A stretch of 64,000 bases of DNA from Candidatus Scalindua sp. SCAELEC01. GTDB lineage: Bacteria; Planctomycetota; Brocadiia; Brocadiales; Scalinduaceae. Numbering within the stretch: position 1 is the first letter of the stretch; each line of letters opens with the position of its first letter. The DNA lies in contig SHMT01000014.1 in NCBI GenBank assembly GCA_004282745.1, forward strand, positions 62,001 through 126,000, in the 5' to 3' direction. A program made the translations under genes and the position numbers. This document shows, in pieces, positions 3,615-63,711 of the stretch. The notes below the pieces were generated by a model that ran no database searches, had not been told where the DNA came from, and saw only the letters and a program-made list of their open reading frames with translations.

Positions 3615-3934
3615 TATACCCATTGTAAAATGGTTTTAGGAATTTCCGGGCCGGAGTTTACTTGAAATTTTGATTTTTCGATTGAACAAAACCAGAGGCT
3701 TAGTAATACTAAGGGTCCAGGAAAAAATAACTTGTTGCTTTATAGCGCTCAGTTTTAGATCAGATTTGGTTGATCTGATCGAGCAGGACCGCAGGCGTAG
3801 CCTGAGCTACAGCGAGGATACTGCGAGTGAAGAGCGGCCGAAGGTGGCCTGAAAATGAGATGCCAGAACGACAAGTTATTTTTCCCTGGATCCTGAGGGC
3901 TCAGGAAACCTAAAACCAATTTGTGATGGGTATA
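3615..3934. mobile_element. MITE family D copy, interrupted by a family A MITE
   Basis: The left end TATACCCATTGTAAAATGG and the right end (reverse complement TATACCCATCACAAATTGG) form imperfect terminal inverted repeats of about 26 bp, continuing into TTTTAGG on both sides. Part of the interior (about 3615-3708) recurs inverted near 63.6-63.7 kb. A family A element sits inside. The right end abuts the stop codon of the TPR-PilJ gene. TA-ended termini suggest mobilisation by an IS630/Tc1-type transposase, which is inference. Confidence 0.8.
3712..3894. mobile_element. MITE family A copy nested in family D
   Basis: The left end GGGTCCAGGAAAAAATAACT and the right end (reverse complement GGATCCAGGGAAAAATAACT) are near-perfect inverted repeats. 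The interior is shared with copies at 8705-8895 and 38934-39063. It encodes nothing recognisable. Its position inside family D shows the order of insertion: D first, then A. Confidence 0.8.
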
Positions 3935-8548: not shown

Positions 8549-8704
8549 TTTAGCTCCTTTTCTTTTCTTAAGTTTATTTGTCTCGCCCAACATAATAACT
8601 AGCATTCTTGTATGAATGCTCATCCAGTGTTTCAACACGTATCATTTCTCGATTTGTGAATACTATTTCTACTCTAAAACGAAATATTGCATAATTATCT
8701 CCTA

Positions 8705-8895
8705 AGGGCTCAAGAAAAAATAACTTGCCGTTTTTGCCTGTCCCTGCCAGAAAGAGTGTCACCCGCCCGGCCTCTCTTCACTCTCAGTATCCTCGCTATA
8801 GCTCAGGCTACGCCTGCGGTACTGCTCGATCAGATCGACCAAATCTGATCTAAAACTGAGCGCTATAAAACAACAAGACATTTTTTCCTGCACCC
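8705..8895. mobile_element. MITE family A copy
   Basis: Inverted-repeat ends (GGGCTCAAGAAAAAATAACT and, reversed, GGGTGCAGGAAAAAATGTCT), flanked by TA on both sides. The interior matches the copy at 3712-3894 in reverse orientation. The TA plus the first element base form the TAG stop of the DnaJ/FGE-like gene. Confidence 0.82.
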
Positions 8896-10445
8896 TAATC
8901 AAAGAAACCACATGAACGCACTAGACGAAAACCCAGACGGTGAAACTGACTGTCACTGTCGTAATCTGATACGCTATGTGAAGCACAACGCAAGAAATTT
9001 GCAGGATCTTCAAAACCACCTCCCCGTACAACCCGATAAGTTTTGTCTCCACCTGTCCACACCCCCCCATCTGACGGGGCGTTGTCATAATTCGGATGCC
9101 AAAAATCTAGGCACAACTCCCAGACGTTTCCATGCATATCATACAATCCCCATTTATTTGACTTAAGCTGTCCCACTGGATGAACTTTACCACCCGAATT
9201 TCGGCTATACCAGGCATATTCACCCAATCTACGCGACTCATCACCAAAACTGTATATTCCACTTGTCCCGGCCCTTACCGCATATTCCCATTCTGCTTCA
9301 CTTGGAAGACGGTAAATGTCCCTCTCTGCTTTTTTATTGAGCCTTTTGAGATACTCATTGCTGAATGTCATAACAGGGTAATTGCCTGTATCATTTCCAG
9401 ATTGATTACCGTCGGTTATCGAAGGATCACTTCCCATAATACGTTCCCATTGGGACTGTGTAACCTCATACTTTCCCATCCAAAATCCGTTCACATTAAC
9501 TTCATGTGCTGACTTCTCAGAATCTTGACACTCTTCATTGGGAGAAGAACATCCCATGATATAACTTCTTCCCGGTATCCAGACAAAGTCCATACCACTA
9601 ATAGGATCATGTTTGATAGTTCCACTTGGCAGGAATGATACTACCATCTCTTCACCCAGCCCTATCATTGCTATCTTACTTATCCTCACCTTGTCTTCAA
9701 CAATATCCAGATACATGTATACGGGCTTTTGCTTCCCCTCTCCCAAGAGCGCTTTTGCTTTATTACTCGTTATTGTAACAAAACCTTCTCTGTCTAATTT
9801 CTTTGGCCACACATTCCAGTTGAGAGATAACGGTAATTTAGCGCTTTTGCTATCATAGCCTCCATTGTTTAAAGTTGCTTGAGCTGCTTGATAATCAGGA
9901 TTATGTTGTTGAACTGCATGATTAAAGACATCTACTGCTTCCCTTTGGCGCTTTCGGAATTCCATCTCTGAATCAAAGGCATCACGAGTAATATTGAGAA
10001 CTGGTTGAATCCCAGGAAAATTATTTGTTGATCGGACCAGGGGATTTAGCGCTGTTTGTATAACTGTGGGTGTGGAATTTTCATGCCTTTTTTGTGAAGT
10101 ACCATATTGTGTATAGAGTACTCCAGCGATAATCATTGTTAGAACAATTCCCCCTACTAAATATATTTTTTGAAATCCTTTCGATTCTCCTACTTTGGAT
10201 TCATTGTGTTCTGCATGTGAGAGCTGTAATGCCAGCTCTTCATCAAATATGGTTCGGCTTTCTAGAACGGAAAGCACTTGATATGCTTCATTCTTTAATT
10301 TGAACATCTCTTCCGCCTGTTTTCTTTGGGAAGAGGATGAGAACTTGTCAGGATGATACGCGTGAGAAAGAAACCGGAAACGCTCTTTTATCTCTTGTTG
10401 GGTTGCTTGACGAGATACACCTAATATTTCATAATAATCCTTCAT
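8895..10445 (-). CDS. J-domain protein fused to a formylglycine-generating-enzyme-like domain
   Basis: Membrane-anchored fusion of 516 residues. A J domain (about 1-65, with the HPD motif in YHPDKF) is followed by one TM helix (about 96-118), a linker region, and an FGE-sulfatase/SUMF1-like domain (about 285-510: FVWIPG, MGKYEVTQSQWERIMG, RLPSEAEWEYAVRAGT, VVRGGGFED, LGFRLVRS). J domains stimulate an Hsp70. FGE-like domains include formylglycine enzymes but also many non-catalytic or sugar-binding relatives, so no reaction is assigned. An SD-like AGGATC precedes the start. The TAG stop is shared with the MITE junction; excision of the element would leave the same stop. Confidence 0.85.
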   Translation of the reverse strand: MKDYYEILGVSRQATQQEIKERFRFLSHAYHPDKFSSSSQRKQAEEMFKLKNEAYQVLSVLESRTIFDEELALQLSHAEHNESKVGESKGFQKIYLVGGIVLTMIIAGVLYTQYGTSQKRHENSTPTVIQTALNPLVRSTNNFPGIQPVLNITRDAFDSEMEFRKRQREAVDVFNHAVQQHNPDYQAAQATLNNGGYDSKSAKLPLSLNWNVWPKKLDREGFVTITSNKAKALLGEGKQKPVYMYLDIVEDKVRISKIAMIGLGEEMVVSFLPSGTIKHDPISGMDFVWIPGRSYIMGCSSPNEECQDSEKSAHEVNVNGFWMGKYEVTQSQWERIMGSDPSITDGNQSGNDTGNYPVMTFSNEYLKRLNKKAERDIYRLPSEAEWEYAVRAGTSGIYSFGDESRRLGEYAWYSRNSGGKVHPVGQLKSNKWGLYDMHGNVWELCLDFWHPNYDNAPSDGGVWTGGDKTYRVVRGGGFEDPANFLRCASHSVSDYDSDSQFHRLGFRLVRSCGFFD

Positions 10446-18132: not shown

Positions 18133-18158
18133 AAATCTTCTTCCTTTCAGACTAATTA

Positions 18159-18303
18159 GTGTTTGAACGAACACTACCCATCTACTACGTTGCTGCAACA
18201 ATTTCGAAATCCTCAAGTACAATTGTACGTTCCGGTTACGAAATTGTTACGCGCCTTGTACCTGGGCACTTTTCATTCAAACACAGGGTTTTCGTTCAGA
18301 CAC
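18159..18303. mobile_element. MITE family B copy
   Basis: A 145-bp element with ends GTGTTTGAACG and, reversed, GTGTCTGAACGAAAAC, flanked by TA on both sides. It is nearly identical to the copy at 56039-56183 and similar to 47365-47508. It lies just upstream of mltA. Confidence 0.88.
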
Positions 18304-18692
18304 TAATTAATGAAACAGTACCGACAAACAAAATTTTTGCCCTCTTTTCAAGCGGGAATAAATTTCCCACTTGATGACCCTAATGGATAAAATTTACACA
18401 AGAGAGCAGACTAAATCTTCTCATAAACTATCTTACCCAGGAGCCATTACCCCGTTTACACTTTTTCATCTCCCAACTCATTCAACACTTTAACTACGCA
18501 CAGCTAAAAATCACTTAAAAAATAGTTTTTTGGCACAAAAATAGCGACGCTAACGAGCAGGCCCTTTCATTTCATTATTTTCGCTCTGTATACAAATCGA
18601 CTTGAGGATACATTCGTACCTACGGGAAAATTTGCGAACAGATAAAAAAACTATCTTTATTTTTTCATTCTCAGTTTAAGGAGCAGAAAGAG

Positions 18693-30427: not shown

Positions 30428-30559
30428 TATACTAAAACCGATTTGGTTTTACCGGAAACCAACTCTTGGTGAAGGTATCCCCGAACAAAAGGCGCCGAGG
30501 ACTTTACTCGCTCAATTTCCTTTCGGATCTTATCCAAAAACCATTATGAAATGAGTATA
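30428..30559. mobile_element. MITE family C copy
   Basis: Ends TATACTAAAACCGATTTGG and, reversed, TATACTCATTTCATAATGG, sharing TATACT and GGTTTT in the terminal repeats. The interior (e.g. AGGCGCCGAGGACTTTACTC) matches the copy at 55858-55996. It separates the Trm112-like gene from yidC. Confidence 0.82.
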
Positions 30560-38742: not shown

Positions 38743-38933
38743 TCAACTGTGAGCTTTAACCACATGTTTATTTTTCGTCAGTTTGGTTACTTTTTCATCC
38801 AGTGATAGATGAGAAATATCGATCTTTAATTTTTCCAAATCTCCAAGCAGACACTTCTCGGTCGTTTTACTATTGGAACGACCGAGAAGATGTGGCCGGC
38901 AGTCCCAACACGTAATGACTGACGAATACCTTA
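38743..38933 (-). pseudogene. Truncated ORF of unknown function cut by a family A MITE
   Basis: An open minus-strand frame with protein-like composition (VITCWDCRPHLLGRSNSK, then EKCLLGDLEKLKIDISHLS) runs from the MITE edge to a TGA. It has no start codon of its own, so the front has been lost at the MITE. Family not recognised. A perfect 13-bp inverted repeat (CTTCTCGGTCGTT / AACGACCGAGAAG, 38854-38889) lies within it. Confidence 0.35.
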
Positions 38934-39063
38934 GGGTCCAGGAAAGAATACCTTGTTGTTTTATAGCGCTCAGCTTTAGATCAGATCTGGTCGAGCAGGA
39001 CCGCAGGTGTAACCTGAGCTACAGCGAGGATACTGCGAGTGAAGAGCGGCCTAAGGTGGCCTA
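38934..39063. mobile_element. MITE family A copy, one end missing
   Basis: The left end GGGTCCAGGAAAGAATACCT and most of the family A interior (TTTATAGCGCTCAG; CTGCGAGTGAAGAGCGGCC) are present, but the second terminal repeat is absent. It lies directly upstream of the yehS gene. Confidence 0.75.
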
Positions 39064-39096
39064 ACCATGATGAGTATGAGTATATCAGGAGTTAAA

Positions 39097-47265: not shown

Positions 47266-47364
47266 ACGGGAGTGAGTGTATGGGATCGCAAGAGATTCTC
47301 ATTGAGAGAGCCATTCTCTTGAAGCTATCACCCGATTCAGCCCCCCTCGTTCATTGCTTAAATA

Positions 47365-47508
47365 GCGTTTGAACGAAAACTACCCATCTACGGCGTTGCT
47401 GAAACAATGACGTAATCCTCACGTACTTGAGTACGCTCCGGTTACGTAATTATTGCGCGCCTTGTACCTGGGCATTTTGGTTCGAACACTGGGTTTTCGT
47501 TCACGCAC
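47365..47508. mobile_element. MITE family B copy
   Basis: Ends GCGTTTGAACGAAAAC and, reversed, GTGCGTGAACGAAAAC, with TA on both sides. More diverged than the other two full family B copies. It lies between the PilZ gene and the acetate-CoA ligase gene, which converge. Confidence 0.85.
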
Positions 47509-47766
47509 TAAATATTTAACGCGGTCTTTCTTTCAAGATTTGATGATTTTATTGATCTGAACTGATCCGTTGACTTAACCAAAGCTACATCGTGCGTACT
47601 CCACACTAACGTTTGTACCGGTGAAAAAAGGACAAATACTGCTTAAACATGAGATACCCGTCATGGTTAATGCCACTCTCCAACCCTCTCCGAACAGATT
47701 CATCCGGGCTAACAACGATTATTCTGTCAGTAACGGGCAAGAATCCAATTTATTTTAACGAAACCG

Positions 47767-52937: not shown

Positions 52938-53034
52938 GAGGGCCCAGGAAAGAATCACTTGTAGTTCTCTCCTGTCCCCGCCAGAAAGAGTGTCGCCCGC
53001 GATAAAACAACAAGTTATTTTTTCCTGGGCGCTT
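52938..53034. mobile_element. MITE family A short copy
   Basis: About 97 bp: terminal repeats GGGCCCAGGAAAGAATCACT and, reversed, GCGCCCAGGAAAAAATAACT around a short core (GCCAGAAAGAGTGTC) also found in the 8705-8895 copy. An internally deleted form. Confidence 0.78.
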
Positions 53035-53070
53035 AGGGAGAAAATTGACCGCCGTTTTTTTGAACACAAA

Positions 53071-53829
53071 TCAAGGTGTGGTACCAAACACACGCCTATT
53101 GCTTGGATCTGTTATTGACAGATTCATAGTAATAAACTCTTCTCCAATTACTGTAAGCTTTGAATTTAATTCATCCCTAGTTCCTCTTTCAGAATAGAAG
53201 ACATCATATGATAGTCTTGGCTCCCTTGGATGAAGAAAAAAATAACCAACAATCCGCATGTAAACTTCTTTATTCTTCAAATTACTGAATCTTTGATCTT
53301 TACATTCAATTTTGTATTTAATACAACTTTTCCCGTATCTATACTAAAACCGATTTGGTTTTCGGCTTTACCGGAAACCAAATCTTGGTTGCAGTTATGC
53401 TCGCTCAGTTTTATTTCGGATTTTATCCGAAAACCATTATGAGATGAGTATACTATCTATTTTTAAGTCAAATTTTATATTCTCGAAACGTTTTGGATCA
53501 GTATCTTTTTCCTTTTGTTCTCTTACATATTTGAGTAATTTGCTTTGGTCAGAAAGTTTCCTGTTATAAAACAGGTTTTTTGTATAAACAGAAATTACGA
53601 AGGTATGAGTGTCTGAGTCAGGAATTTGTGAAAAGGCAAGTACGTTTCTCTGTGGAGTATGCATATACCAATTATTTCCTGATGGTCGTTTTATATCAAC
53701 TCCGGCAGAGTTAAAGAAAGTATCCTCATCTGTAAGTGGTGTTAGATTGGGAGAAAGTGTCGTACAACCCACGAAAATAACTGATAGAGACAATAGGCAT
53801 ACAAAGATAATGATTAATCGCGTGTTCAT
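53071..53829 (-). pseudogene. Lipoprotein gene interrupted by a family C MITE
   Basis: The front part (130 codons) starts with a signal peptide and lipobox IFVGC. It stops at a TAA inside the MITE after the read-through residues ILIS. Beyond the MITE the same frame continues as RYGKSCIKYKIECKDQ and ends in SNRRVFGTTP. Removing the element but leaving one TA gives KIDSRYGKSC in frame, so the gene was about 215 codons long before insertion. The family is not recognised; it is a putative lipoprotein. The front part may still be made as a truncated protein. Confidence 0.85.
53340..53452. mobile_element. MITE family C short copy inside a lipoprotein gene
   Basis: A 113-bp element with ends TATACTAAAACCGATTTGG and, reversed, TATACTCATCTCATAATGG. 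It is shorter than the other two copies because of an internal deletion. The net insertion, with a TA duplication, is 111 bp, a multiple of three. Confidence 0.87.
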
Positions 53830-54215: not shown

Positions 54216-54382
54216 TAATCCCATCCTTTATTACAAAAAATACCATCTCAACAGTAACATTCTTACACGCCATTATCATAGTTCTTGACAACCTATCCTC
54301 ATACCTAACACCAACGCAAAAATCACTCTGTTGAGGAACAGGACCCTGGTAATCTGTGTTTTATACCCGTTGCAAATATCTA

Positions 54383-55117
54383 CTATTTGTTTTTTACATA
54401 AATCAACTTAAATCTTCCCTTTAGATTTTCACGTTGTTCAATTTCAAATTTTTTAGTTGATTTAATCAACGGAGTCAACTTTTGGAAACCGTAGTTTCTA
54501 GAATCAAAATTGGGTTGCTTTTTCTGTAGAAGATTCCCAACTTCTCCAAGAAATGCCCAACCATCATCATCTGCCAAATCGGAGATGGTAGACGAAATCA
54601 GTTTAATCACTTTTGGAGTTATTTTATCGACATCCCTTTTTTGTGTGGCCTTGCTCTTAGGGAGTTCAGATTCATTTTCATCAGATTGGTTTTTAAGAAT
54701 TTCAATATATATGAATTTATCACAAGCAACGATAAATGGTTCCGGTGTTTTCTTCTCCCCAATTCCAAATACTTTCATTCCAGCCTCACGAAGCCTTGTT
54801 GCTAGACGCGTAAAATCACTGTCACTGGATACCAGGCAAAAACCATTAACTTTTTCTGAATAGAGAATGTCCATTGCATCAATAATCAGTGCGGAATCTG
54901 TCGCGTTTTTTCCTTTTGTATATCCATATTGTTGAATTGGAGTAATAGCATTTTCCAGAAGGAGATTCTTCCACTTTGATAGATTTGGCTTTGTCCAGTC
55001 TCCGTAAATTCTCTTAATTGTAGGATTGCCATACTTAGCAATTTCTTCCATCATCTCTTTCACATAAGCAGAAGGTATATTATCACCATCTATTAATACT
55101 GCGAGTTTTAAATCCAT
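54383..55117 (-). CDS. NYN-domain (LabA/DUF88-like) protein with C-terminal LOTUS/OST-HTH
   Basis: A 244-residue protein. Residues about 1-140 are a PIN-like NYN nuclease fold with the acidic residues in VLIDGDNIPSAY, NATDSALIIDAMD and LVSSDSDFTRLATRLREAG. Residues about 165-240 resemble an OST-HTH/LOTUS domain (DGWAFLGEVGNLLQKKQPNF, GFQKLTPLIKSTKKFEIEQR), an RNA-binding winged helix. NYN-LOTUS proteins are thought to act on RNA; the target is unknown. A strong hairpin lies behind its start region, between it and the next gene. Confidence 0.9.
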   Translation of the reverse strand: MDLKLAVLIDGDNIPSAYVKEMMEEIAKYGNPTIKRIYGDWTKPNLSKWKNLLLENAITPIQQYGYTKGKNATDSALIIDAMDILYSEKVNGFCLVSSDSDFTRLATRLREAGMKVFGIGEKKTPEPFIVACDKFIYIEILKNQSDENESELPKSKATQKRDVDKITPKVIKLISSTISDLADDDGWAFLGEVGNLLQKKQPNFDSRNYGFQKLTPLIKSTKKFEIEQRENLKGRFKLIYVKNK

Positions 55118-55159
55118 AAAATTTTACCTATTTATTAAAATGTTATTGCTAGCGTCAAT

Positions 55160-55857: not shown

Positions 55858-55996
55858 TATACTAAAACCGATTTGGTTTTCGATTTTACTGAAGACCAAA
55901 TCTTGGTAAAGGTATCCCCGGACAAAAGGCGCCGAGGACTTTACTCGCTCAGTTTTATCTCGGATTTTATCCGAAAACCATTATGAGATGAGTATA
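55858..55996. mobile_element. MITE family C copy
   Basis: A 139-bp element with ends TATACTAAAACCGATTTGG and, reversed, TATACTCATCTCATAATGG. The interior matches the copy at 30428-30559. Forty-two bases away lies a family B element. Confidence 0.87.
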
Positions 55997-56038
55997 TTAA
56001 CCATGGACTTTGAAAAACTCACTCCCGGCCTTTCAATA

Positions 56039-56183
56039 GTGTTTGAACGAAAACTACCCATCTACTACGTTGCTGCAACAATTTCGAAATCCTCAAGTAC
56101 AATTGTACGTTCCGGTTACGATATTGTTACGCGCCTTGTACCTGGGCACTTTTCATCCAAACACAGGGTTTTCGTTCAGACAC
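56039..56183. mobile_element. MITE family B copy at the nitrilase stop codon
   Basis: A 145-bp element with ends GTGTTTGAACGAAAAC and, reversed, GTGTCTGAACGAAAAC, flanked by TA. Nearly identical to 18159-18303. The TA plus the first element base form the TAG stop of the nitrilase-family gene. Without the insertion that gene would end one residue later. Confidence 0.9.
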
Positions 56184-57157
56184 TAAATATCAATACGTGA
56201 AAATGTTCGTTTCCCTTCGATAGGTCTGTAAACAGATTTAAAGTCCATGGCGTAATCGAAGTCGTCTTTTTCGAACTCACGATGAGCCTTGATATCAATA
56301 TTGTGGGCAATTAGCAGTTCTTCATTGACTCGCGAAGCTTGGAGAAGTGGCAAGCCTGATGGCGCCCAAATCCCCGATCCGCCCCAAAACCTTGCTCCCG
56401 TCATGGCATTTACGCCAACGGCGTTGCACGCAATCACCCAGATCTGATTAGTGGCCGCAGTCGATGCCATCATCACATCCCACAAGTAGCCATAATAGGT
56501 ATCTGTCTTGACATTCATTTCAGGATAATCTCTCCGCGCCATGGCTCGCCAAGAAGCAAGTTGAATTACGGCATCGATTTCCTCAATTTTGGAGTATTCA
56601 AGCAACAAGTGGGTAAACATGACATCGTAACAAGTGGTAAAGCCAAACTTACCGTGAGGCGAATCCACAACAAGGTGATCGTCCCTCCCACTTTCTGTGT
56701 AGACCTTTTCCAGAGGAGGAAGAAAGGTTTTCTCGTATGTGCCATTAGCATCCAAGTGATCGTGATCGTGGGATAAAATCATCGTCGAATTGAGATATTT
56801 TCCCTCACGGCCTATGCGGATATTATTGAAGACAACAGCCCGAAGATTGTCATCAAGGCACGGCTTCAAAGTCGATGCTACCCAATCCTGATTATTTTCA
56901 ATGACGGCTTTGTCCATATACAAACGGCACTCTTTCTCGTCTTCCCAGAAATATCCTGAAAGGCAGAACTCAGGAAATATGGCGACGTTTACTTTTCTCT
57001 CCTTGAAAATCTGCGTAGCCAGAAGCATTTTCTCTTTGTTAGCCTCAATATCGGGCACAACCGCGTGAATGTTGGCAAGTCCAAGAGAGAGGTTGTTGTT
57101 ATCTTGTGAAAAAAAACGTTCAGCGACTAAAAAATTATTTTTTGATTTTGATTTCAT
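56183..57157 (-). CDS. Carbon-nitrogen hydrolase (nitrilase superfamily)
   Basis: A 324-residue amidase/nitrilase-type enzyme. The catalytic Glu lies in IFPEFCLSGY, Lys in YEKTFLPP and Cys in FTTCYDVMFTH; the later IWVIACNAVG strand is also present. It would hydrolyse a small amide or nitrile; the substrate cannot be told. The ribosome site is weak. The stop codon is made by the family B MITE junction, changing the end by one residue only. It lies in an accessory region with MITEs on its downstream side. Confidence 0.92.
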   Translation of the reverse strand: MKSKSKNNFLVAERFFSQDNNNLSLGLANIHAVVPDIEANKEKMLLATQIFKERKVNVAIFPEFCLSGYFWEDEKECRLYMDKAVIENNQDWVASTLKPCLDDNLRAVVFNNIRIGREGKYLNSTMILSHDHDHLDANGTYEKTFLPPLEKVYTESGRDDHLVVDSPHGKFGFTTCYDVMFTHLLLEYSKIEEIDAVIQLASWRAMARRDYPEMNVKTDTYYGYLWDVMMASTAATNQIWVIACNAVGVNAMTGARFWGGSGIWAPSGLPLLQASRVNEELLIAHNIDIKAHREFEKDDFDYAMDFKSVYRPIEGKRTFSRIDI

Positions 57158-63599: not shown

Positions 63600-63711
63600 G
63601 CCCAATCCTCGACTTGGCATCACTAAGCCTCTGGTTTTGTTCAATCAAAAAATAAAAATTTCAAGTAAACTCCGGCCCAGAAATTCCTAATACCATTTTG
63701 CAATGGGTATA
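63600..63711. mobile_element. MITE family D copy, one end visible
   Basis: The right end (reverse complement TATACCCATTGCAAAATGG) and about 90 bases of interior match 3615-3708 in inverted orientation. The other end was not found. Confidence 0.65.

Follow-up and report, generated by a model that had tools for sequence, protein, structure and literature searches.

The lipoprotein gene and the element within it

The window (the whole 64,000-nucleotide stretch of Candidatus Scalindua DNA that was analysed) carries on its minus strand a lipoprotein gene, at 53071-53829, that is cut in two by a 113-bp element at 53340-53452. The element belongs to a repeat family that we call family C. The features of the locus are as follows:

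53453..53829, minus strand: 5' portion of the interrupted lipoprotein gene, with residues 1-125 whole and most of codon 126
53340..53452, plus strand: family C element, exactly 113 bp, TATACT...AGTATA, bounded by TA on both sides and adding a net 111 bp
53340..53341, no strand: TA, first of the two target copies, by frame arithmetic (duplication shown at sister copies)
53451..53452, no strand: TA, the other target copy, by the same arithmetic (duplication shown at sister copies)
53071..53339, minus strand: 3' portion of the interrupted lipoprotein gene, from RYGKSC... up to the stop, an open frame with coding-like codons

The 5' part has the beginnings of a lipoprotein: an ATG at 53829 preceded by AGAGGT, a signal peptide and a lipobox-like FVGC. 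Its open reading frame (53437-53829, minus strand, 130 aa) runs into a stop just within the element (KIDS-ILIS*). The present product is thus predicted to have at most 130 residues and to be without the conserved C-terminal third, and the truncated lipoprotein is probably inactive. The original prediction described two gene parts in the same frame on either side of a 113-bp family C element, and the sequence bears this out. If 111 bp are removed and a single TA is kept, KIDS is joined to RYGKSC, again as predicted, and the result is one frame that opens with ATG, has 215 codons in all and closes with a stop.

The downstream stretch behaves as coding sequence. It is the sole stop-free frame among its six, and just two of 5000 base-shuffles leave it open in the joined frame. 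With codon usage modelled on 25 long open reading frames of the window, its score is reached by 0.05% of 2000 shuffles. A weaker comparison is with all 89-codon stretches of the window, 12.6% of which are open (both strands, coding stretches included). A MITE-like element inserted at a TA splits the lipoprotein gene, and this observation is confirmed.

Homologues across the joint

When the joined lipoprotein is used as query, a search at the level of the phylum finds matches in four of 392 genomes, the genome of origin apart (E 1.2e-9 to 5.4e-6; query residues about 13-182; open frames of 206-260 codons). The matches are lipoprotein-like, 199-204 aa as aligned, and represent three distinct sequences, those of G208 and G373 being identical. 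They are distant (22-23% identity) and come from other families, and they align with the joined lipoprotein free of gaps over the junction (KIDSRYGKSCIKY / RLTRRHGDYCVEY). Downstream of the joint, G129, D141, G158, L162-H163-P164, S176 and R178 are common to the homologues. A profile of the three gives 22.5 bits to the upstream half of the lipoprotein, where 1000 shuffles reach at most 4.0, and 19.7 bits to the downstream half alone, where 1000 shuffles reach at most 9.5; the two tests are not wholly independent because the homologues were retrieved with the joined query. The uninterrupted homologue of about 215 residues that the original prediction proposed to look for thus takes the form of proteins of about 200 aa that span the joint. 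Homologues ending at the first stop, or unlike the downstream part, had been named as the outcome that would count against the prediction; those found continue through the joint. The loci L293-L296, from distant members of the phylum, represent a lipoprotein-like family of about 200 aa that has no Pfam match.

Homologues that span the joint are expected of an interrupted gene, but not of one that naturally terminates at the first stop. On the second explanation, the true stop is the one within the element, the 130-aa protein is the genuine product and the downstream frame is either chance or a separate small gene. The absence of the gene from the close relatives searched would fit, as would the circumstance that intactness was first judged by frame alone. 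The shared residues downstream of the joint in homologues of 199-204 aa, the margin of the downstream half over its shuffles and the rarity of an open downstream frame among shuffles speak against it, and on this sequence evidence the explanation appears already largely refuted and is highly improbable. An assembly artefact, in which the cell has an intact gene and the repeat was inserted or misjoined there during assembly, would agree with an assembly of 104 contigs that contains repeats and with the larger insertion sequence (IS) that did break contigs. Ordinary read lengths exceed 113 bp, so that the element is shorter than a read, and the joint in exact frame with one TA, together with the homologues aligned across it, makes both flanks one gene; an artefact seems scarcely credible.

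Closer to home the gene is missing. With the upstream part only as query, the relatives search (58 other genomes) gives no close homologue; the one other same-genus genome searched has no orthologue of the gene, and 74 other genomes of the class give 0 convincing matches (G052 has a weak match, E 0.006 over 36 residues). Searches of the genome-contig database, viral contigs, plasmids and NCBIfam return no homologue of the lipoprotein. Its Pfam search gives OprF only (E 0.12, below its cut-off), as does its PDB search (E 0.065). In a comparison of synteny, the neighbouring NYN and response-regulator genes have relatives, and among the matches listed none extends over the lipoprotein gene itself in another genome. 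Since the same-genus genome and the other genomes of the class that were searched lack a convincing orthologue, no empty site is available for the lipoprotein locus itself.

Two further observations concern the neighbourhood. The NYN-LOTUS gene at 54377-55122 is 95-96% identical to genes of two genomes of another genus (G014 and G015) and 88% identical to that of the same-genus genome G001; its greater closeness to the other genus suggests horizontal transfer. Directly behind the lipoprotein gene, 52939-53037 is a GGGTCCAGGAAAAAATAACTTG-type repeat with relatives around 3709-3898, 8701-8898 and 38930-39070.

Structure and distribution of family C

The element at 53340-53452 consists of two adjacent hairpins (fold with RNA parameters -45.3 kcal/mol, z -8.4). 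The window holds two more copies:

30428..30559, plus strand: second family C copy, of 132 bp, its two hairpins separated by one CCCCGGAC-type unit
55858..55996, plus strand: third family C copy, 139 bp, with one CCCCGGAC-type unit

The left-end pattern of the family has 263 matches in the 4.59-Mb genome at up to 3 mismatches, and a control with the reversed pattern has 0; membership of the 53340-53452 element in the family is far beyond chance. Family C is present in 14 of the 59 genomes of the relatives search, the genome of origin included. The exact 26-base pattern occurs in at least 76 stretches of the genome-contig database, and among the matches listed all but one are titled Candidatus Scalindua or Planctomycetota. 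Copies or ends lie in two further places, by transfer or misbinning: one in a contig titled Neomarinimicrobiota (L252, 678-703) and one in a genome from another family of the order (G019:C84:4040-4152).

Sixty fetched stretches and the window together supplied 76 left ends, 64 of which have a right end by set criteria. These complete copies are short, at 105-223 bp (112 bp in 13 copies and 113 bp in 10 being commonest), and have no transposase gene. The longer ones carry CCCCGGAC...CGCCGAGGACTT units between the hairpins, with one to five CCCCGGAC-type units in tandem per copy in the sister genus. Minimal hairpins of 57-59 bp are also found, with left/left (L179, L213), left/right (L191) or right/right (L138) ends. 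The element has nothing above the gathering score in Rfam. Covariation is weak: in the sister genus, the right hairpin has compensatory changes at 2 of 15 pairs in 6 cells (shuffled mean 2.6, maximum 5 in 300), and the left-hairpin alignment is too gapped to use.

Duplication of the TA target

The original prediction took the restored frame as direct evidence for TA target duplication. The duplication stands, and it stands on other copies: at the lipoprotein locus it is derived from the frame, whereas two homologous empty sites display it directly. Both empty sites are from Ca. Scalindua RBC_AMX3, and each has a single TA where the filled site, in the window's genome, has TA-element-TA (filled L192 against empty L236; filled L177 against empty L253). 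A third candidate pair, L210/L287, is not clean and was rejected on inspection. Nested insertions also display the duplication. They lie in a repeat of another family:

18157..18309, plus strand: 153-bp repeat, holding CCTTG-TA-CCTGGG, the empty form of the family C nesting site

Eight of the 64 complete sampled copies are nested at one same TA of this repeat, five in one orientation and three in the other. The window has copies of the repeat at 18157-18309, 47363-47515 and 56037-56189, and family C insertions of both orientations concentrate at its inner TA. At L129, the right end of an IS is found at a TA within a family C copy.

A candidate source of transposase

The genome contains parts of an IS630-family IS whose right end resembles the ends of family C. 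At L092, a transposase fragment ends shortly ahead of AAAACCATTTCGTAATGAGTATA; its full-length relative in G042 matches NF033545 (IS630 equivalog, E 1.3e-66) and has D-D-34-E spacing. Six contig ends of the genome carry the 3' end of the transposase gene and the same right end with differing flanks, and five more carry the matching left end of the IS. Thus, the IS is multicopy and broke the assembly. No intact copy is assembled in this genome. Over 26 bases, the family C right end agrees with the IS right end at 21 positions and the left end at 19. Beyond TATACY, shuffles reach this likeness at frequencies of 5e-5 (21/26) and 2.5e-4 (19/26), uncorrected for six comparisons. The IS left end is a poorer fit (15/26 and 13/26), and the left end of the element does not resemble it (8/20 beyond TATACY, shuffle P 0.10). 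The same-genus genome G001 has many family C copies, yet no match to the transposase fragment.

A different mover has to be weighed. Family C may be a REP/BIME-like palindromic repeat mobilised by a RAYT (Y1) transposase via single-stranded hairpins, as its two strong hairpins, its hundreds of copies mostly outside genes, the few compensatory changes in the sister-genus right hairpin and the eight matches to Y1_Tnp in the genome would allow. In the loci read, no pair of family C ends brackets any of the eight Y1 genes, and single or partial ends lie near some of them (L084, L087, L089). The element has TA at both of its ends, both ends are similar to the IS630 right end, and the homologous empty sites reveal an exact TA duplication; REPs are not known to duplicate their target. 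A Y1-driven origin is accordingly improbable.

Family C is best read, from its sequence features, as an IS630-type MITE that may work like RUP (see below), and the transposase of the IS630-family IS in the same genome would be what moves it. The reading that we prefer, with a probability of roughly 0.86, is that the element is a non-autonomous, TA-targeting element of IS630/Tc1-mariner type, inserted into the lipoprotein gene by the genome's own IS630-family transposase or a past relative of it. In this course of events, such a transposase would recognise the ends of the 53340-53452 element, insertion would take place into the TA in codons 126-127 and duplicate that TA, and the additional 111 bp with their in-frame stops would truncate the gene.

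A broader proposal, which we hold tentatively and with some doubt, is that family C constitutes a modular MITE system. Minimal hairpins would insert at TA in each other's ends and so give rise to composites such as the 113-bp form, those of the sister genus with one to five CCCCGGAC-type units, and one IS630-type transposase would serve all of them and a 319-bp form with right-end-like termini. An element of 319 bp lies at 3616-3934 of the window, with 26-bp inverted ends similar to the IS630-type right end (TATACCCATTGTAAAATGGTTTTAGG / CCTAAAACCAATTTGTGATGGGTATA); it contains a copy of another repeat, and a partial copy ends at 63711.

Rarity of copies within genes

Family C copies avoid open reading frames. 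With crossing defined by a frame of at least 110 aa and 25 aa on each side, four of 61 sampled copies (those of the 64 complete ones with long flanks) cross a frame; of 1500 random TA sites taken from the window, 1010 do so. Among the four, the lipoprotein gene alone is convincing. Such strong avoidance makes the genic copy an exception and an unusual survivor, which in turn suggests that the lipoprotein gene is dispensable. In-frame use of the element was considered and rejected: one frame is open throughout the element, but the lipoprotein insertion is in another, and the other three crossings are unconvincing.

Excision and age of the insertion

The original prediction held that excision would restore the gene, which is so for a precise loss of 111 bp and not for the product of ISY100-type excision. 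In the ISY100 study, transposase cleavage falls two bases within the 5' ends, and donors that have been religated carry TATATA at the junction (PMC2170065). At the lipoprotein locus, a TATATA junction is computed to place a stop after KIDSI, giving a 127-residue product. Thus, only precise loss restores the gene, and such restoration would presumably come about through homologous repair or through a precise event of low frequency.

The insertion was also predicted to be fairly recent, which is unproven. The copy at 53340-53452 has 6 differences in 113 positions from a consensus of ten 113-bp copies that includes this copy itself (range 4-11), and its nearest copy among the ten has 3 differences; by this count it is not the youngest. 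A single stop-free stretch of about 88 codons is weak evidence for recent insertion, and the same-genus genome searched has no orthologue, so that no orthologous locus dates the event.

Comparison with known systems

Searches of the literature on anammox or Scalindua for MITE, insertion sequence or IS630, judged by titles and the starts of abstracts, found no description of family C. The splitting of the gene is a well-documented but essentially ordinary event. Its interest lies in the documentation of a high-copy family of IS630-type MITEs in a Scalindua-related lineage, with a likely parent IS, empty sites and one broken gene.

The nearest counterpart is RUP of Streptococcus pneumoniae, a 107-bp element whose proposed mover is IS630-Spn1 (PMC2229807). 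By its description, RUP resembles family C in size and in its TA target; its ends are similar to those of an IS630-family IS that shares its genome, and its copies, about a hundred or more, lie mostly between genes (PMC2229807). Family C differs from RUP as described in its host phylum and in being built of two hairpins that may be separated by CCCCGGAC-type units in tandem. The Correia/NEMIS elements of Neisseria are also alike by description, at about 107 and 155 bp, with TA termini and an optional internal block, but the same portion of the source names no partner IS for them (PMC2229807). ISY100 of Synechocystis, a member of IS630/Tc1-mariner, shares the TA target with its duplication and the transposase family, and serves as the model for the chemistry of insertion and excision; in the part of its description drawn on, it is an autonomous IS of 947 bp, whereas family C is without a gene (PMC2170065). 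By the features tested in its sequence, family C would be a known kind of element, an IS630-type MITE.
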